From positions 1,984,001 through 2,048,000 of the forward strand of contig NZ_JPOJ01000001.1 of assembly GCF_000733855.1 (NCBI RefSeq): 64,000 nt of DNA, written 5' to 3'. Positions 42,031 to 52,371 of this stretch are shown here, in pieces; positions within the stretch are counted from its first letter, which is position 1; the number at the start of each line of letters is the position of its first letter. The position numbers and the translations under genes are program-made. The stretch comes from Methylomicrobium agile. Its GTDB lineage: Bacteria; Pseudomonadota; Gammaproteobacteria; Methylococcales; Methylomonadaceae. The notes beneath the pieces were generated by a model. The model was not told the origin of the DNA and did no database searches. It worked only from the letters and a program-made list of their open reading frames with translations.

Positions 42031-45000
42031 TTATGGCGCCGATTCGGGAGGCGTCGACATAATCGCAAACGGAAACAGGCCGAAAGAGGAGGGCAGGCAA
42101 AGTTGAAGCTGATCCTCGGCCCTTACGGTGCTGGCCCGGCATTGGCCGAACAGATCCCGGTATTCTTCGGGCGCCGCCGGCGGCAGTTCCAGCCGGGTGC
42201 CGTTCCAGAAACCGCCCGGCGGCTCGGCCTTGTCGATATATAAAGCGGCGATCAGGCGGGGAACCACGATAATGACGAAATGGTTCCGGTCTTTTCTGGC
42301 GAACGCCAAGAGATGCTCGGCGCCGCTGCCCTGGATATTGATTTTCAAGTAGTCGCCGGTCTGGAACAGCGCGGCATGGCGCAGCCGGAAACGTAGCGTC
42401 TGCATTACGACAAACAGCTTGATGCGCCCGTCTTCCATCGAAGCGAGCAGGGAACGCAGCAGTTGAAGGCGGTTCTGGTCGGGTTTGGCCAGCATCGCTT
42501 CCAGTCGCTCCATCGCCTGATGGCGCCGGTCGAAGTCGGGAGGGCGCCGGTTGTCGGGATCGACCAGCGTAAATTGCCAGAGTTCGCAGCCCTGGTAAAT
42601 GTCGGGCATGCCGGGCGAGGTCAACTGCAGCACCGTTTGCGCGAGCGCGTTCAACAGGCCGGGCGTTCGAATCCGTTTTTCGAATTCGGTAAATTCCCGT
42701 AAAAACATCGGATTGGTGTTGGTGTCCAGGCAGCGGCAGACGAACGCGTCGACGGCCTGTTCGTACTCCTCGTTCGGGTCGATCCAGGACGTGTAAAGTT
42801 TCGCTTCGCGGACCGCCTTGATCATATAGGCCCGGATGCGTTCCCGGTAATCCTTCAGCGTGGTCTCGTCCATCGGCGTCAGCGGCCAGGTTCCGATCAG
42901 CACTTGATAGAACAGATATTCGTCGTCCCAGACGATCGCGGTCCGGCCCGCCTTCGATTTGGGCCGTTTGGTCAATTTTCGCCAGCGCAGCACGACTTCC
43001 TGCCATTGCTGCGGTATCTCGCTCAGCACATTGATCCGGGCGCGCGCGTCGGCGCTGTGCTTGCTGTCGTGCGTGGACAGCGACAGCATGCTGTGCGGCC
43101 ATTTCTTGAGCCGTTCCTGGTTGAAATAATGGAAGGCATTCACCGAATAGCCCAGATGGCCGGGATCGCCGCCCACTTCATTCACCGAAATGAGCCGGTT
43201 GTAACGGTAGCAGGCGGTATCCTCATAGCCTTTCGCCATCACCGGCGCGGTGTATTGCTGCAGCTTCATCGCGAACTTGAGCCGCTCTCTCTCCGAAACC
43301 GGCGAATGCTGTTCCAGGAGCAGGATGTTCCGGATGAACTCGAACACGGTCTTGTCGGCGGCGCGGCTGCGCTGCCTGGCCTGTTCGACGGCCCAGTTGA
43401 TGTATTGGCTGTCTTTTTTGCCGATGCTGTTGCCGTTGATATAGGTCCGGTAGACCGGAAAGCAGGCGACCACTTCCGATAAGGCTTCGCGCAGGGCGTT
43501 CAGCGTGTAATCGCGGGTTTTCGGGTTCGCATTGGCGATTTTACCGAGCTGGTTGGCAAGCACGCTCAATTCGCCCCCCATCAGCGTCGTCATCACCCGT
43601 TTTTTGGACTGATAGACCAGTTCGCCGAAATCCTGGCGTTTCCTGGCGAAACGGCCGTAACAGCGCGTCAGTTGGGCTTCCGCATTGCCGTCGATGAAAA
43701 CGCCGTTGACGATATTGGCGAACTCGTAGCCGGTGGTGCCGTGAATCGGCCAGTCGCTGGACAGGTATTCGTAATTGGCGACGATTTTTTCGGCCACGAC
43801 ATAAACCGGGGGCATGTCTTTCGGTTCGGCTTCGATATTCGAGAGGATGGCCGCCATCTTTTTGTTCAGGCGTTCGTAATAGGCGACCGGATCGTACAGC
43901 CCGTCCGCATGATCGATCCGGAGTCCCTGAATCTTGCCTTGCCCGAGCTGGGACAGAATCAATTGATGGGTCGTGTCGAACACTTTTTCGTCTTCGATGC
44001 GCAACCCGGCCAGGTCGTTGATATCGAAGAACCGGCGGTAATTGATTTCGTCCCCGGCGACGCGCCAGTAAGCCAGGCGGTAAACCTGCTTTTCCAGGAG
44101 CGCGTGCATTTCGCCGTTCTCGCCGCCGCTCCGGTTGATTTCCGCCACGCGGTCGGCGATGAAGCGCAGGATCGGCGGATTGTCCGCGCAGAGCCGGGCG
44201 AGGTGTTTCTTGAAAACTTCCTTGTCCCGCCGGCGTTCTTCTTTTTTTTCTTCCGTGGTTTCGGTGCGCAGCGGCAGTTTGCTGAAACTGTTGTCGAGGG
44301 TCTGGTATTCCGGAAATACCGGATCGTCCGGCGCGAAAGCCTTCGTCAACTGCGCGTGCTGCGAGTTCAGGATCAGCGGATAGGTCTGCGGATCGACCGG
44401 AAAACGGTGCTGGAAATAGTAAATGCCGAATTCGCCGAGGGTGGCGTCAAACTCCAGCGTCAGTTGCCGCTGTTCCAGGATCTCGCCGTACAGGCCGCCG
44501 AGCACCGGAATCAGCAGCTTGTTCTGCAGCGCCTGGTTGACGGGATGCCACTCGATGTCGAAAAAGTCGGCATAGCCGGAAGCCTGGCCGTTCTCCAGTA
44601 CGTCCTGCCACCAGAGATTGTCGCTGCCCATCACGCCCATGTGATTCGGCACGATGTCGGCGATCAGGCCCATGCCGTGGCGCTGCAGTTCGGCGACGAA
44701 ACGGTCGAACGCTTCGGTGCTGCCGATTTCCGGGTTGATTGCGCCGTGGTCGACGATATCGTAGCCGTGTGTGCTTCCCGGACGGGCCTTCAGGTAAGGC
44801 GACACGTAACAATGGCTGATGCCGAGGCGGCGTAAATACGGCACCAGCCGGGTCGCTTTCGCGAACGTGAAGCCTTTATTCAATTGCAGGCGGTAAGTCG
44901 ATACCGGAATCGCCGCTTTTGGGCGCCGGAGTGCGGTTTCGCTGGGTTGTTCCTCACTTTCGCGGGGAAGCGGATAGCCGGCTGTCGACTCGATCATCAT
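42031..45000 (-). CDS. treY: Malto-oligosyltrehalose synthase
   Basis: TreY rearranges the reducing-end glucose of a maltooligosaccharide into an alpha-1,1 linkage. The 989-residue GH13 enzyme shows PVSTYRLQLNKGFTFAKA at its N-terminus, LGISHCYVSPYLKARPGSTHGYDI, GLIADIVPNHMGVMG and GLRIDHADGLYDP (nucleophile Asp), and later LSLSTHDSKHSADARARI and SPGMPDIYQGCELWQF, all typical of TreY. I start at ATG 45000, which has GGAGG seven bases upstream; the frame open to 45117 lies inside treZ. It overlaps the end of treZ by 47 bases, implying coupled translation. It is the last gene of the operon. Confidence 0.95.
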   Translation of the reverse strand: MMIESTAGYPLPRESEEQPSETALRRPKAAIPVSTYRLQLNKGFTFAKATRLVPYLRRLGISHCYVSPYLKARPGSTHGYDIVDHGAINPEIGSTEAFDRFVAELQRHGMGLIADIVPNHMGVMGSDNLWWQDVLENGQASGYADFFDIEWHPVNQALQNKLLIPVLGGLYGEILEQRQLTLEFDATLGEFGIYYFQHRFPVDPQTYPLILNSQHAQLTKAFAPDDPVFPEYQTLDNSFSKLPLRTETTEEKKEERRRDKEVFKKHLARLCADNPPILRFIADRVAEINRSGGENGEMHALLEKQVYRLAYWRVAGDEINYRRFFDINDLAGLRIEDEKVFDTTHQLILSQLGQGKIQGLRIDHADGLYDPVAYYERLNKKMAAILSNIEAEPKDMPPVYVVAEKIVANYEYLSSDWPIHGTTGYEFANIVNGVFIDGNAEAQLTRCYGRFARKRQDFGELVYQSKKRVMTTLMGGELSVLANQLGKIANANPKTRDYTLNALREALSEVVACFPVYRTYINGNSIGKKDSQYINWAVEQARQRSRAADKTVFEFIRNILLLEQHSPVSERERLKFAMKLQQYTAPVMAKGYEDTACYRYNRLISVNEVGGDPGHLGYSVNAFHYFNQERLKKWPHSMLSLSTHDSKHSADARARINVLSEIPQQWQEVVLRWRKLTKRPKSKAGRTAIVWDDEYLFYQVLIGTWPLTPMDETTLKDYRERIRAYMIKAVREAKLYTSWIDPNEEYEQAVDAFVCRCLDTNTNPMFLREFTEFEKRIRTPGLLNALAQTVLQLTSPGMPDIYQGCELWQFTLVDPDNRRPPDFDRRHQAMERLEAMLAKPDQNRLQLLRSLLASMEDGRIKLFVVMQTLRFRLRHAALFQTGDYLKINIQGSGAEHLLAFARKDRNHFVIIVVPRLIAALYIDKAEPPGGFWNGTRLELPPAAPEEYRDLFGQCRASTVRAEDQLQLCLPSSFGLFPFAIMSTPPESAP

Positions 45001-46840
45001 CAGGTTCCTCCAGGCAGAACAGGACCGACCACGGCGGTAATTTTCCTTGCCGCAACGTTTCCTGCGGCTCGCCGGCACTGGCGTACAACACCCTGCCGGC
45101 GGCAGGGCATTCCGCATTTGCCTCGATAGCGCCCAGGTTGGCGGTCAACGTCAGTATCGCGCCGCCGTTCAACTGCCACTGCACCTGAAGAGAGCGGTCG
45201 GCGATCAGCCGGTAGCGGGCCTGTTTTCCGGTGACGCCGTGCAGCCTCGGGATGATTTCGCGCTTGCGGATGCGCAGCAATTCCCGGTGAAAATCCAGCC
45301 ATTGCCGGTGCGGCAGCCGCGTGATTTCTTCCCAGTGCAGAATCGCCGACTGATAGGTTGGCAGCGCATTCGGCGGCGGCAGGGCGCCGGGCGCCGTTTC
45401 GCCTTCGAACTCCGGAAAATCGGCAAACTCCTGCCGCCGCCCTGCCGCCACTTGCCGGCCGAGTTCCTCCGGAAAATCGATAAAATAAGGGAAAGGCCGA
45501 GTGCAGGCCCATTCCTCGCCCATGAACAGCAGCGGGAGCGAGGGCGCCAGCAAAACGATCGCGGTTGCCGCGCGCACGGCTTCGGCCGGGCAGAGTTCGG
45601 TGATCCGCCCGCCTAGCGGCCGGTTGCCGATCTGGTCATGATTCTGCAGGAAGGAGATGAAGGCGGTGAGCGGCAGGTCCGGGCTGGGCGCGCCGCGCGG
45701 TTGCCCGGCCCGGTAGGGCGAGGCTTCCCCCTGGTAGGCGAAGCCTTGCGTCAGGCACCGGCCCAGCAGATGTATCGTCCGGTCACGGTAGTCCCGGTAG
45801 AATCCGAAGGTTTCCCCGGTCAACAGCACGTGCAGGACATGATGCAGGTCGTCGTTCCACTGGGCATCGAAATAATGCCGCGGGCTGTTCTTGCCACGCC
45901 TTAGATAATGGCCGGCATTGTTGTCGTTTTCCAGGATCAGGTAGACATGGCGGTCGTAGCCCGGCCCCTGGCGGACCGCGTCGGCCAGTTCCTCCAGAAA
46001 GTGGGGTTGCCGGTGATCGAAAATGTTGTGCGCGGCATCGAAACGCAGGCCGTCGAAATGGTATTCTTCGAGCCAATATAGGGCATTGTGGATAAAGTAT
46101 TGGCGCACCCAGTGGCTTTGCCCGAAATTGATCGCATCGCCCCAGGCGGTATCATGGTCCGGGGTAAAAAACTCCGGCGCGTAAAGGCGGAGATAATTCC
46201 CTTCCGGCCCGAAATGGTTATAAACCACATCGTTGAAAATCATCAGGCCTTTCGCGTGCGCGGCATCGACCAGCTCTTTCAGCTCGTCGGGCGTTCCGTA
46301 GCAGCCCGCCGGCGCGAACGGCAGCACCCCGTCATAGCCCCAGTTGCGCCGGCCGAAAAAATCGGCGACCGGCATCAGCTGAATCGCGGTGACGCCCAGA
46401 TCGGCCAGATAATCCAGCTGTTTCCTGACGCCGGCAAAATTGCCTTCCCCGGAAAAAGCCCCGACATGCAGCTCGTAGAACACCGCGCTTTCCCAGGTTC
46501 GCCCCTGCCAGTGGTGGTCCTGCCATTGCCAAGCCGCGGGATCGATTACCTGGCTCGAACCGTGCACGTCCTGAGGCTGATAGCGGGAGGCGGGATCCGG
46601 CACATGATGCTTGCCGTCGATCAGGTACTGGTAATAAAACCCGGTACCGGCCAGTTCGGTGGTAATGCCGTACCAGCCTTCGTCTTCGGCGGCCATGTGC
46701 AGCCTGACTTCGGGGGCATCGCCTTGCAGGCATAACTCGACTTTATCCGCTCCGGGCGCCCACAGGCGGAAGTTCACCCGGCCGTCGTCGAGCAACCGGG
46801 TTCCGAAAGGCATCAGATGCGATCTTTTTGTTCCCGCCAT
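44954..46840 (-). CDS. treZ: Malto-oligosyltrehalose trehalohydrolase
   Basis: TreZ cuts trehalose from the product of TreY. The 628-residue protein has an N-terminal CBM48/E-set domain (RVNFRLWAPGADKVELCL) followed by a GH13 barrel: MIFNDVVYNHFGPEGNYL, FDGLRFDAAHNIFD with the nucleophile Asp, YLILENDNN with the acid/base Glu, and SFLQNHDQIGNRPLGGR, which is characteristic of TreZ. It starts 6 bases after the treT stop and overlaps treY by 47 bases. Together with treY it converts glycogen-type glucan to trehalose. Confidence 0.96.
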   Translation of the reverse strand: MAGTKRSHLMPFGTRLLDDGRVNFRLWAPGADKVELCLQGDAPEVRLHMAAEDEGWYGITTELAGTGFYYQYLIDGKHHVPDPASRYQPQDVHGSSQVIDPAAWQWQDHHWQGRTWESAVFYELHVGAFSGEGNFAGVRKQLDYLADLGVTAIQLMPVADFFGRRNWGYDGVLPFAPAGCYGTPDELKELVDAAHAKGLMIFNDVVYNHFGPEGNYLRLYAPEFFTPDHDTAWGDAINFGQSHWVRQYFIHNALYWLEEYHFDGLRFDAAHNIFDHRQPHFLEELADAVRQGPGYDRHVYLILENDNNAGHYLRRGKNSPRHYFDAQWNDDLHHVLHVLLTGETFGFYRDYRDRTIHLLGRCLTQGFAYQGEASPYRAGQPRGAPSPDLPLTAFISFLQNHDQIGNRPLGGRITELCPAEAVRAATAIVLLAPSLPLLFMGEEWACTRPFPYFIDFPEELGRQVAAGRRQEFADFPEFEGETAPGALPPPNALPTYQSAILHWEEITRLPHRQWLDFHRELLRIRKREIIPRLHGVTGKQARYRLIADRSLQVQWQLNGGAILTLTANLGAIEANAECPAAGRVLYASAGEPQETLRQGKLPPWSVLFCLEEPDDDRVDSRLSASPRK

Positions 46841-46846
46841 GCGTCG

Positions 46847-48091
46847 TTATCCACTCACTTCGATCCGGTCGTTCGCATGATGCTGCAGTGCAACCATCAA
46901 GGTCAGGTGTTCGCGCAACTGGCGGGTCAGGAGAAAGTTTTCGCGCACGAACGCTTTGCCTTTAATCCCCATTTCTTCCATTTTCTGCCTTTGATTCAAC
47001 AGATAGCGGATCCGCAAGGAGGCGCCTTCAGGGGTATTGACCAGAAACCCGGTATGGAAGTTGATCACCTGCAGGCGAATGCCGCCGGTATCGCCGCCGA
47101 TCACCGGTTTGCCTTTCCAAAGCGCCTCGGTCACCGTCAGGCCGAAACCTTCCTTGGTGGATTTTTGCAGCACGATATCGGCGAGCCGCTGCAACGCATT
47201 GATCGTCCGGTGCGCGTCGGGCGGGAGCAGCAGAATCTTGATGTCGGGGTCATCGCCGGCCGCGAAGCGCACCTCGTTCAGGACGGCTTCGCCTTCCGGG
47301 TCGTCGGTGGCGCTCCCGCCGGCCAGCACCATTTGCAGGTTCGGGATATAGCACTTGGCCATCTTGTACGCTTCGATCACCCCGACCGGGTCTTTGAAGC
47401 GGTCGAAGCGCGAAACCTGGACGATCATCGGCGCGTCCGGATCGATGCCGAAATACCCGCGGACCGAATCCAGTTCTTCCTGCGGCAAGTCGATATTCTT
47501 GTCGCTCAACGGGTCGATGCTCGGCGAAATGATGTAAGACGGGTGCGGCATCGGCTGGACGAACTGCGGCAGGGAAAAGATGCTCGCGTCGTAGCCGCGC
47601 ACGAACTGTTCGACGAAACGCCAGGGGCGCCGGTACGGATGGCTGGCATCGATGTGGCAGCGCCAGATCCATTTGCCTTTCCGTTCCTTGCAATATTGCA
47701 GCAGCGCCGCCGGTTGCGGGTCGTGGATAAACACGAAATCCGCCTCTTCGAGAATGGGCCGCAATTGATTCGCATTCTGTTCGTTGACTTCGCGGAAATG
47801 GTTCAATTGCGTTTCGGGTATGCCGATCTGGTTGCCCTGGATCGCATTGTGCAGGCTCTTGGTGCATTGATAAAACTCGCTGTCTCCGGTAATGACTTCC
47901 CAGCGCGCGTCGATCCCCAGTTCCCGGGCCAGCGGCACCATTTTTTCCAGGATTTCGGCGACGCCGCCGCCGACGCGGGTGGAGTTGACGTGAACCATCG
48001 TCTTGCCCCGCAGCGGTCTGGTCAACTGCTGCAAATGGCGGATCACGTCCTCGCCGGCCACCGCGGCATAGGATTCCAGCATCGAGGTCAT
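46847..48091 (-). CDS. treT: Trehalose glycosyltransferring synthase (GT4)
   Basis: TreT joins glucose from a nucleoside diphosphate glucose to free glucose, giving trehalose. The 414-residue GT-B protein has VHVNSTRVGGGVAEILEKMVPLARELGIDARW, the N-terminal signature of this family, and the GT4 donor-site elements IVQVSRFDRFKDP and STKEGFGLTVTEALWKGKPVIGG with the conserved EGFG-x(n)-E. I start at ATG 48091, which overlaps the upstream stop as ATGA; the longer frame to 48229 lies inside the DUF5752 gene. Whether it uses ADP- or UDP-glucose cannot be read from the sequence. Confidence 0.9.
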   Translation of the reverse strand: MTSMLESYAAVAGEDVIRHLQQLTRPLRGKTMVHVNSTRVGGGVAEILEKMVPLARELGIDARWEVITGDSEFYQCTKSLHNAIQGNQIGIPETQLNHFREVNEQNANQLRPILEEADFVFIHDPQPAALLQYCKERKGKWIWRCHIDASHPYRRPWRFVEQFVRGYDASIFSLPQFVQPMPHPSYIISPSIDPLSDKNIDLPQEELDSVRGYFGIDPDAPMIVQVSRFDRFKDPVGVIEAYKMAKCYIPNLQMVLAGGSATDDPEGEAVLNEVRFAAGDDPDIKILLLPPDAHRTINALQRLADIVLQKSTKEGFGLTVTEALWKGKPVIGGDTGGIRLQVINFHTGFLVNTPEGASLRIRYLLNQRQKMEEMGIKGKAFVRENFLLTRQLREHLTLMVALQHHANDRIEVSG

Positions 48092-48777
48092 GACACGGTC
48101 TCCGTAAAATAGTGTTGAAAAGTGGCGGCCAGTTGTTGGCGTAATTGGGTCAAAGTGACGAAATACGGATCGATCTTCGATAATTGGTCGATCAAAGGCT
48201 GGTAAGTCCCTCCGAAAAAGCCCAGCCATTGACGGAAGTCATCGATATTGCTTTCGGTACGGCGGCGCGAGTCGATGAAATGATAAAAAATGCTGTTGGT
48301 CGACAGGAGAGGAATCACTCCCACCATCTCTTGCGGCGCGGCCACAGAGGTGCGCGACTCGAATACGACGATCTGCGAGCGGATGAATTGGAAGCGTTGC
48401 GAGGCTTGCGACCATTGCAGATATTCGCTTTCTTCGAGACGGTCGTCGATGTACTCCAGCAAGCGGTAGCGCAGGTCTTCGGGATTATTGTAAAAGGTGG
48501 GGTCGAGAACGGCCAATTGCTCGGCCAGTTTCGCATCGTGCAGGCTGTGGCGTACCCAGCTTGCAAAATCGTTGATATATTCCGCTTCTTCAAAGTGAGG
48601 CAACAACAGATTGCCCCAGAAATGGTAATAAAGACTGTCCGGACTCAGTGTTTCGATATGGTCGCGGAGTTCTTTCAAGGTCGCCGCGCGTTTGTGAGTG
48701 GCAATCGCGATCAATGCGCAATCTTTAAAGACAAACCGCGGAATATCGGTTTGAGTTGGGTCATTTACCGCATTCAT
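48088..48777 (-). CDS. DUF5752 family protein, first gene of the trehalose operon
   Basis: The 229-residue protein begins at ATG 48777 with a GGGGGAG stretch upstream (a GTG at 48816 is a poorer alternative). It is soluble, rich in Tyr, Phe, His and acidic residues, with FVFKDCALIAIATHKRAATLKELRDHIETLSPDSLYYHFWGNLL and, further on, TNSIFYHFIDSRRRTESNIDDFRQWL, two similar YHF-containing segments that suggest an internal duplication. I recall this as the DUF5752 family, found next to TreT-type enzymes. Its ATGA overlap with treT suggests a partner or regulator of that enzyme; no activity is known. Confidence 0.8.
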   Translation of the reverse strand: MNAVNDPTQTDIPRFVFKDCALIAIATHKRAATLKELRDHIETLSPDSLYYHFWGNLLLPHFEEAEYINDFASWVRHSLHDAKLAEQLAVLDPTFYNNPEDLRYRLLEYIDDRLEESEYLQWSQASQRFQFIRSQIVVFESRTSVAAPQEMVGVIPLLSTNSIFYHFIDSRRRTESNIDDFRQWLGFFGGTYQPLIDQLSKIDPYFVTLTQLRQQLAATFQHYFTETVS

Positions 48778-49941
48778 CAGGATTGACTCCCCCGGTAATC
48801 GCACAAAATGGGGCACCGGTGTTTTTCCGAAACATGAGATTTATCCGTTTGCTGAAACTTGTTAACAAACAGGGTTGTTTATGTTTTAAAATAATGTCCA
48901 ATGTCTAGATTTTTATTTATAACTCATTGGTTGTAAATGGTTTTTGTTTTAAGTAATTTATTAGAGGCAAGGGCTGTTATTCGAGTTCCAATTTTATTGG
49001 AATGTTAAATTAGGCATATCAATTAACAAATATTGATAACTTGCGATAATATAAATAGTTATATTCGTTAAGTGATTATTAAATTGCTTGAATGTTTGAT
49101 GTTTCAGAGTTTCGCTCTTGGTTTTTAGGTTTATTCAATGGAGTAATCGACGAGCTGACGGTATAGAAAGAGATATTACGAAAAGGGATTTGAAATAACT
49201 TAAAATACCTTTAATAAAGCCTCGGTATTTCTTAAACAGTGCCGGTACAATACTGAAGCCGAACCAGGAGCTGAACTTTATTTCTTTATATTATAAAGGC
49301 TTAGTTGGAACCAGAGCCGTCGTTTTTCGGGAATTGATATTTCGTATATCCATTTAATATCCGTAGGCCCTCATTATTTGTATATTTACAGTTTTCTGGT
49401 TATAAATATAAACTGGTATCCGCTGGCGAAGAGGGCCATGTCGTTAAGTTGAGCCGTCGTCCGGCATTTCCGGCCGGAATGACGCAGTTTTTTAACGGCA
49501 TCGGTGGAGAGGGGCATTCCCCGAAACCTGACATTAAATCATCATGAGTAAAAATGCGGCTTCGTCAGCGATTCGAGTGAGCGCGGATTGGTTTGACGTG
49601 CCGATGAAGAACGGCCGGGCGAGCTACAGGAAGATCGGAACAGGACACGATCGGCTCCGGCAAGCGCGGGCACCCTACCCGGGGATAGGGCGGAGATAGC
49701 GGTTATGCCATCGGGTAAAATAGTCAATCTGTATTGCGTTGTAAGGCGTTGTAAATTGATCGGCGCGGGGACATTTGCGTGTAGCTAGCGCTATGCCCGG
49801 TCGGATGTTCTACTCGGTTTAGATAATAAAAAGCAATGGAAAATGTTGTATTTAAGGTGCGCCGAACGAAAGGGGTCGATTTTTGCCGGTTTTCGTTTGG
49901 TGTTATGCGGATGAAAAATCGATGGCAAACAGGAACATTTT
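48778..49941. other. Long AT-rich intergenic region
   Basis: About 1.2 kb between the divergent trehalose operon and the HEAGH gene. From about 48860 to 49430 it is clearly AT-rich by eye, unlike the rest of the window, with no open frame of substance. A repeat piece at 49436-49520 (GCCATGTCGTTAAG, CCGGCATTTCCGGCCGGAATGACG) belongs to the family seen at 41880 and 52439. Promoters for both flanking genes should be here. A 61-codon minus-strand frame at 49542-49727 has no family or ribosome support. Confidence 0.6.
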
Positions 49942-50670
49942 ATGAACAAGTACACCCACAACTTTATAAAGGCGTCGCGTCTGGCTCATAAAGAGCTCAG
50001 CAGAAGAAACGCCATCCATGAGGCCGGACATGCTGCCGCCATTTATCTGGGCAACAAGCAAAAAGGTTTGCCGCCGGTCTATTTTCGGATTACGATCAAT
50101 GGTATAGTGCAAAGCGATAGCCAATCAAAACGTCTTCTCGGCGATATCTACGATACCTATATTGCCAAAGTGGAAGGCGGTCGCCTGGTTCAGAATCTGC
50201 CCACGTCCTTTGCCGCAGCGACAAAGGATTTTTCCGCCGCCCAGAAACTCGCCTATGAAACCGCATTCGAAGCGGACATCATCAATTTGCTGGCGGGGCC
50301 GGTGGTTGAAGCCAAGGATGTCGCCATGCGCAACGACGAACGGGTCGACGCGGGCCGGATTAACGTCAATGCGCTGCAGTATTATGACGGGTCGTATGAA
50401 CTGGATGTTGTCAGGGAATACTTTGAATGTTTTTTTGATCACGAAGACCTGAAAAAAAGAAAGATCAATGAATTCTTCCTGGCCGCATTCGCTTTCGTCA
50501 GCGATTACTCGAACTGGAGCGCCATCAATAGGTTGGCGGATCATATTCTGGCTGACGACAAGCTTATCATTGATTGCGATGAGATTATTTCGGTTCTGGA
50601 AGATGAAAGCCGCTTTCCGTTGACCGATTCGGTTTTGCCGAACTCCATGTCATTATCGGGAGGTTTTTGA
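49942..50670 (+). CDS. Orphan HEAGH zinc-protease-like protein (M41-like)
   Basis: The 242-residue cytosolic-looking protein carries His26-Glu-Ala-Gly-His30, a zinc-binding HExxH in the HEAGHA context of FtsH-type (M41) peptidases. Further on, FEADIINLLAGPVVEAKDV recalls the M41 LAGRAAEE helix, and Asp136 in RVDAGRIN lies where M41 places its third zinc ligand. The end (RLADHILADDKLIIDCDEIISVLE) also resembles the last M41 helices. There is no AAA ATPase domain or membrane span, so this is a stand-alone peptidase domain or a derived one. AGGAA lies upstream of the ATG. Neighbours give no clue to a substrate. Confidence 0.65.
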   Translation: MNKYTHNFIKASRLAHKELSRRNAIHEAGHAAAIYLGNKQKGLPPVYFRITINGIVQSDSQSKRLLGDIYDTYIAKVEGGRLVQNLPTSFAAATKDFSAAQKLAYETAFEADIINLLAGPVVEAKDVAMRNDERVDAGRINVNALQYYDGSYELDVVREYFECFFDHEDLKKRKINEFFLAAFAFVSDYSNWSAINRLADHILADDKLIIDCDEIISVLEDESRFPLTDSVLPNSMSLSGGF

Positions 50671-50895
50671 ATTTAAGCTGATTTTGGTCATTATGAACAA
50701 TTCGCCCTGCATGAAATCCAAAAATAATTATGTAGGCGGAATATGATGATGCGCTGGATCAGCGTTCCACTAAGGTAGAGCTGTTGCCTGAGTTTAGCGG
50801 TAAGAATCTGCCCATCTTCGAGGAGGCAGAATCGTAGTAAACGTGTCCAAAATCAATATGCTGTTGACAGTTCAAATTTCGATGGAGCTCAACTG

Positions 50896-52371
50896 ATGAC
50901 TATGAAGACCGATCTACTCTCCGATCAGCTACAAAGGCAGTTGGAGTTGCGCGAAAAAGCCGAAGCTCGAATTGCCCATGTCGCCATAAAAGACCGGGAG
51001 GTTCCAAGCCCTGACAAACTGTTGCACGAATTGCGGGTCCACCAGATCGAACTGGAAATGCAAAACGAGGAACTGCGGCGCTCGCAGAGCGAACTGACTG
51101 CCTCGCGCGACCGGTACGCCGATCTTTACGATTTTGCGCCGGTCAGTTATTTTACGATTACCTGGGGCGGCGTGATTCTCGAATGCAATCTCACCGGCGC
51201 GAAATTGTTCGACACGCCCCGCAAAAAGTTGATCAATCGGCTGTTTGCGCAGTTTATTGCCGAAGAAGAAAAAGACCCGTGGCACCGGTTTTTTTGCCAG
51301 GCTCGCCAGAATGCGGATAAACAGAGCTGCGAAGCGCGGATTCGGCGCGCCGACAGTTCCGCTTTTTATGTACAGATCGACTGTCTGCGCATCGAGATTG
51401 ACGGCGAACTGCCGATTTTCCGTTTGGCGCTCAGCGACATTTCTTCCCTCAAGCAGGCCGAACAATGCCTGCGCGTGGCTGCCGCGGCTTTCGAGACCCA
51501 GGAAGCCATCCTGATCACCGACGCGGATAAGGCCATTCTCCGCTCCAATAAAGCCTTCACCCGGATTACCGGTTACAGCGCGAAAGAAATTGCCGGTCAG
51601 ACGCCTTCATTTTTTCAATGCGGCCTGCAGGACGATTTGTTTTCGGAATCTTTGTGGATCTCCATGGTGCGCGACGGCTATTGGCAAGGCGAAGCCTGCG
51701 AGCGGCGCAAGAACGGCGAGGTTTTTCCCGTCTCGCTCAGCATCACCCAGGTAATCGGGCCCGATGGACGCATCAGCCATTATGTGATCTGTTTTTCGGA
51801 CATTACCTTGCAAAAGGAAGCTGAAAAGGTCCTGCTGAACAAAAAGGCCTTCCTCGAAAAACAGATCAAGATCATGCATTCGGACCTCGGGAAAGCCAAT
51901 AAGGAAACTTCCGAAATGAACACCGCTTTGCAGGTGATGCTCAAGCAGCAACAGGCGGAGCTTTCCAAGGCCCAGTTCTCGCTTTCGCAGGAAGCGGAAA
52001 GAACGGTGCTGCCTTTTCTGAAAAAGTTGAAAGAGCATACCCGCGATAAAAACGAAATCCGCTTGATCGGCATTCTGGAAGTCAATTTGAAGCATTTGCT
52101 GGAATCGTACGGCGTTTCGGAAAGCTTGCCGGCCGCCTATATGAAACTGACTCCGGTCGAAATCCAGGTGGCGTCGATGATCAGGCAGGCCATGCCGACA
52201 AAAGTGATCGCTTCGATGCTGAAGCTCTCGCCGGGAACGGTCAATATTCACCGGAAGCACATCCGCAAAAAATTGGGATTGAACAGCCGTTCGTTGAATC
52301 TGACCGGCTATTTGATGTCCCTGCATGAGGAGGCTCCGCTCGGCGATCAAAGTGTCTGTTCCGAGCATTGA
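50896..52371 (+). CDS. PAS-PAS-LuxR transcriptional regulator
   Basis: The 491-residue protein has an N-terminal coiled coil with LLHELRVHQIELEMQNEELRRSQ, a motif common before PAS domains; PAS 1 (about 75-190: YADLYDFAPVSYFTI); PAS 2 with PAC (about 195-310: ILITDADKAILRSNKAFTRITGYSAKEIAGQ, RKNGEVFPVSLSI); a second coiled coil; and a LuxR-type helix-turn-helix at the C-terminus (LTPVEIQVASMIRQAMPTKVIASMLKLSPGTVNIHRKHIRKKLGL). There is neither receiver nor kinase domain, so it likely binds a ligand or cofactor through PAS and controls DNA directly. GGAG eight bases before ATG 50896 supports the start. A strong terminator follows. Confidence 0.9.
   Translation: MTMKTDLLSDQLQRQLELREKAEARIAHVAIKDREVPSPDKLLHELRVHQIELEMQNEELRRSQSELTASRDRYADLYDFAPVSYFTITWGGVILECNLTGAKLFDTPRKKLINRLFAQFIAEEEKDPWHRFFCQARQNADKQSCEARIRRADSSAFYVQIDCLRIEIDGELPIFRLALSDISSLKQAEQCLRVAAAAFETQEAILITDADKAILRSNKAFTRITGYSAKEIAGQTPSFFQCGLQDDLFSESLWISMVRDGYWQGEACERRKNGEVFPVSLSITQVIGPDGRISHYVICFSDITLQKEAEKVLLNKKAFLEKQIKIMHSDLGKANKETSEMNTALQVMLKQQQAELSKAQFSLSQEAERTVLPFLKKLKEHTRDKNEIRLIGILEVNLKHLLESYGVSESLPAAYMKLTPVEIQVASMIRQAMPTKVIASMLKLSPGTVNIHRKHIRKKLGLNSRSLNLTGYLMSLHEEAPLGDQSVCSEH

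Follow-up and report, generated by a model that had tools for sequence, protein, structure and literature searches.

The protein studied here, encoded in a 64,000-nucleotide stretch of the Methylomicrobium agile genome (the window; features in Table 1), consists, as judged from its predicted structure, solely of the M41 (FtsH-type) peptidase fold. It belongs to a much-duplicated protein family that was found so far only in one family of methanotrophs, near Methylomicrobium and Methylobacter. We propose, with moderate confidence, that this family consists of soluble, cytosolic, ATP-independent M41-fold zinc peptidases, possibly partners of FtsH in one clade, and with some copies that are pseudo-enzymes. 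An open reading frame with a HEAGHA motif had been predicted at this place, and it was borne out as a gene for 242 aa, in which HEAGHA occupies residues 26-31.

Table 1. Features of the gene and its upstream DNA, in window positions.
Feature	Position	Strand	Remarks
Gene of the stand-alone M41-fold protein	49942..50670	+	242 aa; stop included in the coordinates
AGGA, ribosome-binding-site-like	49931..49934	+	7 bases before the ATG; read from the sequence
HEAGH (residues 26-30), with the catalytic Glu between two His ligands	50017..50031	+	51/59 conservation
Glu123 in the AGPxxEA motif, presumed to correspond to the first Glu in FtsH GGRxAEE	50308..50310	+	59/59; pairing inferred
Residue 153 (Glu in this copy, Asp in the family), the presumed third ligand of zinc	50398..50400	+	pairing inferred
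Upstream intergenic DNA	48817..49941	.	AT-rich up to about 49480

Predicted fold of the window protein

Relatives were collected from 61 genomes and one Methylobacter MAG, and their surroundings were fetched. Removing L062 (a fragment) and L043 and L051 (broken reading frames) from the 61 extracted matches led to a 59-row set, window copy included. Alignment A1 (56 rows) is this set minus L075 and L027, which are near copies, and L053, which is 363 aa long. Alignment A2 has 15 rows, each of which is in A1 as well; it covers the 16-row FtsH-linked clade described below except for L053. The AlphaFold model of the window protein from A1 had a pLDDT of 88.5 and a pTM of 0.83. When it was structurally aligned, the top 22 entries were all M41 (Z 14.2-11.3, 125-161 residues at 2.8-5.2 Å), and they comprised FtsH of several bacteria, AFG3L2, YME1 and plastid FtsHi, matched mostly over residues 11-222. 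Below these rows came 5IQJ with a Z of 10.3, followed by a gap to unrelated entries at 3.8. A second model, of the distant FtsH-linked paralog L056 from A2 (pLDDT 76.9, pTM 0.79), returned the same M41 entries at Z 14.7-11.2 and 5IQJ at 10.5, with the next unrelated entry at 4.0. All these Z-scores are re-examinations of Foldseek's own candidates, and helical models may reach such values by chance arrangement, so the assignment of the M41 fold relies on the gap below the M41 rows. Foldseek itself placed 3kds_F first in the PDB (E 3.8e-3, probability 1.00); among PDB and viral models no match went down to E 0.001, the best viral one being at 4.3e-3. Two predicted models and their structural alignments thus agree with the M41 fold of the original prediction, and the fold was not an unrelated one.

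The likeness is far weaker at the level of sequence profiles. For the window copy, no Pfam model scored over its cut-off, PF01434 did not match and no NCBIfam model matched. PF01434 gave weak matches in 28 of the 56 members scanned (best E 0.0012), and the two paralogs of the window copy in its genome scored 16.4 and 10.8 bits against a gathering cut-off of 29.9, whereas the four FtsHs of that genome scored 219-249. HEAGHA alone was aligned to FtsH with confidence by hhalign (probability 94). The family profile found four matches among PDB sequences, 5IQJ not among them, whereas the FtsH M41 domain L094 of the same genome, used as a contrast query, found 18, down to E 1e-58. The annexin and splicing-factor matches among PDB sequences were taken as chance, as was a match of the window protein to PF13983 YsaB (E 0.028, under its cut-off). 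The window copy had no match in PHROGs. Other members had weak ones, and among the 25 of 44 PHROGs families shown, phrog_87 ('metallo-protease') was matched by 2 of 56 members (best E 0.2 among those).

It had also been claimed that the protein lacks an AAA domain and a membrane span, and both points held. Scanning 56 members against Pfam gave no match to an AAA family, and lengths ranged from 212 to 363 aa (n = 59). The maximum 19-residue hydropathy of the window protein was 0.97, compared to 2.1-2.3 in three FtsHs. L059 was the one member of the 59 to reach 1.6 or more, and it did so in a C-terminus that seems to be read out of frame.

Putative active site and its loss in some copies

His26, Glu27 and His30 are all kept in 51 of the 59 members, and Glu123 of AGPLAEA is conserved in every one of them. 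The ligand set given in the original prediction stood for these two His residues and Glu27 and failed for its fourth member: column 136, proposed there as the zinc-binding Asp, is Asn in 44/59 and Asp in 4/59 members, and Asp136 was rejected as the third ligand. Column 153 contains Asp in 55 members, Glu in three (the window copy, its ortholog and L037) and Asn in one (L081), and it is Glu153 that presumably takes the third position in the window copy. HExxH together with Asp153 was found in 49/59 members. A further 24 distinct copies had the full set in 22 cases, the others being L120 with Gln for Glu27 and L090 with Glu153. Since these copies are mostly the best-scoring profile matches of the bacterial family, that sample favours intact ones.

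The choice of residue 153 comes from the order of helices. Both models contain the HEAGH helix, two strands, a long helix that stops just past AGPxAEA, a short helix and a helix starting from GGSSDLE; the predicted helix 151-164 has residue 153 in its first turn. In FtsH sequences, GASND(I/L)E occupies the place of the GGSSDLE helix start. Because this order is the same in the models and in FtsH, residue 153 is likely at the position of the third zinc ligand, and by helix order and motif Glu123 is presumed to pair with the first Glu in the GGRxAEE motif of FtsH. When alignment was forced with hhalign and MAFFT, the middle part paired in another way, which set Asp112, invariant at 59/59, near the FtsH Asp, and on these alignments Asp112 would be the alternative third ligand. 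For FtsH, PMC5939537 gives the downstream Asp as the third zinc ligand, and PMC12067869 gives Glu, not Asp. Both candidate residues, Glu and Asp, are kept by the family.

The residues of HExxH are partly lost in 8/59 members, five of which form one clade. As far as their sequences tell, these eight copies look like pseudo-enzymes. L037, one of the members with Glu153, is also without HExxH, and L053 of the FtsH-linked clade has Ala for Glu27. At L032:8059-9628 two family copies stand in tandem, one with HEASH and the other with Tyr in place of the first His.

Such copies suggest that the members could be regulators and not proteases, i.e., subunits or decoys of M41 shape that attach to FtsH hexamers or to substrates in the way of the plastid FtsHi proteins, which are proteolytically inactive. 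We consider this possible although somewhat unlikely. It would fit the intact reading frames of the eight copies without HExxH residues, the Glu for Asp at 153 in the window copy, the complete ftsH that one clade adjoins, and the FtsHi chains among the structural matches. However, the presumed active site is whole in 49 of the 59 members, including 15 of the 16 FtsH-linked rows (the exception is L053), which would not be expected if cutting did not matter.

Selection, distribution and gene neighborhoods

The closest ortholog is in Methylomicrobium sp. RS1 (NZ_JAERVK010000004.1). The DNA identity is 93% for the reading frame and 79-88% for pieces of the upstream intergenic region, and the dN/dS of the pair is 0.17. 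These values indicate that the window ORF is a gene under selection; dN/dS in three ortholog pairs (0.11-0.28) likewise indicated purifying selection. The AT-rich region noted beside the gene in the original prediction is real (34% GC at 48817-49480, compared to 58% for the window), but it diverges faster than the gene. The upstream intergenic DNA probably holds the promoter. An Rfam search of 48700-51000 gave a single match, to the sR28 snoRNA (E 0.92, under its cut-off), which was taken as chance.

These values also bear on the idea that the window copy is a paralog in decay, with its third ligand already altered. Its Asp149 and Glu153, which in the copy and its ortholog replace the GGxxD pattern of the family, would agree with loss of function, and so would the long branch (0.67) leading to the clade of these two rows. 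Nevertheless, the gene is intact in both genomes at the low dN/dS given above, and Glu153 is also present in L037 (without HExxH) and L090. Decay therefore seems quite improbable to us.

With the A1 profile, matches were obtained in 191 of 237 genomes (26 of 29 genera) of the window's bacterial family, Methylomonadaceae, at one to seven per genome; among good-quality genomes the protein family was present in 142 of 173. In the genome collection, roughly half of the known species are represented, by a single genome each. The order-level search matched 184/301 genomes in 26/50 genera, and every matched genome listed belongs to the window's bacterial family. Searches of even samples at the class and phylum levels matched 2/369 genomes, both of the same bacterial family, and 1/299, namely the window's own. 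Hence no sampled genome outside this bacterial family had a match in the order, class and phylum samples. Within it 46 genomes were unmatched, and of the 20 listed, 17 are 1.0-2.8 Mb and three are 3.1-4.1 Mb in size. The named relatives are Methylomicrobium and Methylobacter; a Methylobacter record was placed under Methylococcaceae in the tree output.

The gene had been called accessory, and this description was half right at most. Presence in 142/173 good-quality genomes and the chromosomal neighbors kept by two groups of copies (see below) point to a lineage-core gene with many duplicates and not to a stray one. The specialised role that was proposed along with it is plausible. That the family is an accessory gene of phages or plasmids is hardly credible and mostly refuted. 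The AT-rich flank could be read in its favor, but it is common to the locus of the ortholog, and the window protein, as a single-sequence query, was unmatched in 72,556 plasmid and 50,697 phage records. The scan of viral contigs, with short peptide patterns, found one IMG/VR contig with a family copy (L090). Along L090:1-8612 an alcohol dehydrogenase-like gene is followed by the family gene (1329-2024) and then by Mu-like tail genes on the opposite strand. By our own reading of its genes this contig reads as the border between a chromosome and a Mu-like prophage, with the family gene on the chromosomal side, which counts against a mobile origin, as does the wide presence within the bacterial family.

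The tree of the 59 rows contains a 16-row clade (support 100/99) to which every locus with FtsH in its vicinity, eight in total, belongs. A complete FtsH gene follows immediately, on the same strand, in L022, L034, L035, L049, L055 and L056 (6/61 loci), whereas FtsH is a decayed remnant in L042 and 2.2 kb away in L057. No FtsH was found in the stretch covered for the other eight rows of the clade, a stretch that is short in some of them, and FtsH was present in 0/40 control regions. The pairing spans genera g1, g16, g24 and g29 and a Methylobacter MAG. The remnant at L042:8748-9479 stands beside an intact family copy with a full active site, which shows that the family gene can outlive its FtsH neighbor. 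Three family paralogs, the window copy being one of them, and four FtsH genes over the Pfam cut-off are present in the M. agile genome, and one of these FtsH genes is beside a family copy. The window copy itself does not adjoin ftsH. Two FtsH M41 domains of this genome, L092 and L093 (G000:C1:2941470 and 3685049), score identically and are 0.74 Mb apart, perhaps as a result of a recent duplication.

A second group of loci is located near pilT-pilU, many with a yggS-like gene in between (names read from the sequence), and the window copy falls in an 8-row clade (99/97) with relatives of this group. Its own neighbors are a DUF5752 gene, which comes after a trehalose-type gene set, and a PAS-LuxR gene. 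We read 42031-48816 as genes for maltooligosyltrehalose synthase, its hydrolase and a glycosyltransferase followed by the DUF5752 protein, i.e., a trehalose-type cluster with an uncharacterised member.

Genes with PAS, GGDEF, EAL, kinase, receiver or LuxR domains were found within 2 kb of 24/61 family loci, compared to 8/85 similarly sized control genes, taken from 40 regions in 4 genomes (p 3e-5), with domain models that were seeded from the family neighborhoods. After loci were merged by eye according to shared neighborhood or clade, 11/35 groups had a signalling neighbor; p was 0.005 against the 8/85 genes and 0.08 against whole control regions (4/35 with an eligible gene). Signalling neighbors may thus be over-represented, but the signal fades after merging, and we treat it as a lead and not as a result.

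Proposed function and comparison with known systems

In the motor-less peptidase model that we prefer, the M41 peptidase domain would act alone in the cytosol, without motor or membrane anchor. As HExxH, the AEE-type Glu and the downstream Asp are kept in most members, the family would most likely be zinc endopeptidases, and conservation of the whole site in 49/59 argues that most copies cut. Without a motor only unfolded, flexible or handed-over substrates would be reachable, and these may be cut with no ATPase involved. Since the gene precedes a complete FtsH gene and the pair is kept in several genera, the product in this old FtsH-linked clade may work with the adjacent FtsH, but a single old linkage event, inherited vertically, may explain the counts equally well. 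The minority copies without catalytic residues would serve as partners that do not cut. With HEAGH intact but Glu at 153, the window copy may be active, its metal binding altered, or may be heading to a pseudo-enzyme; judging from these residues, its predicted activity would be the least certain in the family. A bolder version, unlikely to hold in full, would be an invention of this methanotroph family: motor-less M41 peptidases in up to seven copies per genome would cut flexible regulatory proteins, feed or gate a dedicated FtsH in one clade, and have pseudo-peptidase copies as built-in inhibitors.

The ATPase ring of FtsH feeds substrates into the M41 chamber, and a large, conserved, ring-less M41 family would show what the fold does alone. 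That it occurs in most genomes of one methane-oxidiser family and escapes the Pfam and NCBIfam models would point to a layer of protein control specific to this lineage. In the literature covered, which includes few subscription papers and no bioRxiv preprints, no study of a stand-alone M41 family from methanotrophs was found. The one paper in which 'methanotroph' and 'peptidase M41' were found together, PMC5063861, is about marine Synechococcus. The single paper found under the code 5IQJ is on brain imaging.

The family shares with the peptidase domain of FtsH, AFG3L2 and YME1 (MEROPS M41, PF01434) the predicted fold (Z 11-15 over about residues 11-222), HEAGHA and, in most members and by the presumed pairing, the Glu of AEE type as well as the downstream Asp. 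Unlike them, it is below the Pfam cut-off, contains neither AAA domain nor membrane span, has about 14 more residues between the Glu and the Asp, and has LPPVFFQI, EGGRLI and NW as motifs of its own. FtsHi and Ycf2-FtsHi, plastid motor subunits, have the M41 fold and are among the top matches. FtsHi peptidase domains are inactive, which parallels the eight degenerate copies, but their chains are at least 1008 aa long with AAA parts. 5IQJ from Vibrio cholerae (unknown function, 131 aa chain, Z 10.3-10.5) is likewise a single M41-like domain without ATPase; it is shorter and has no sequence match to the family profile. The predicted phage protein A0A6J5RJ76 ('Peptidase M41 domain-containing protein', 214 aa) also stands alone (Foldseek probability 1.00, E 4.3e-3, TM 0.48-0.53) but differs in its phage origin and is 10% identical to the window protein. 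The M41 fold itself is known, and isolated M41-like domains had been seen before in 5IQJ and A0A6J5RJ76; the methanotroph family described here is unnamed, and its scanned members score below the Pfam cut-offs.
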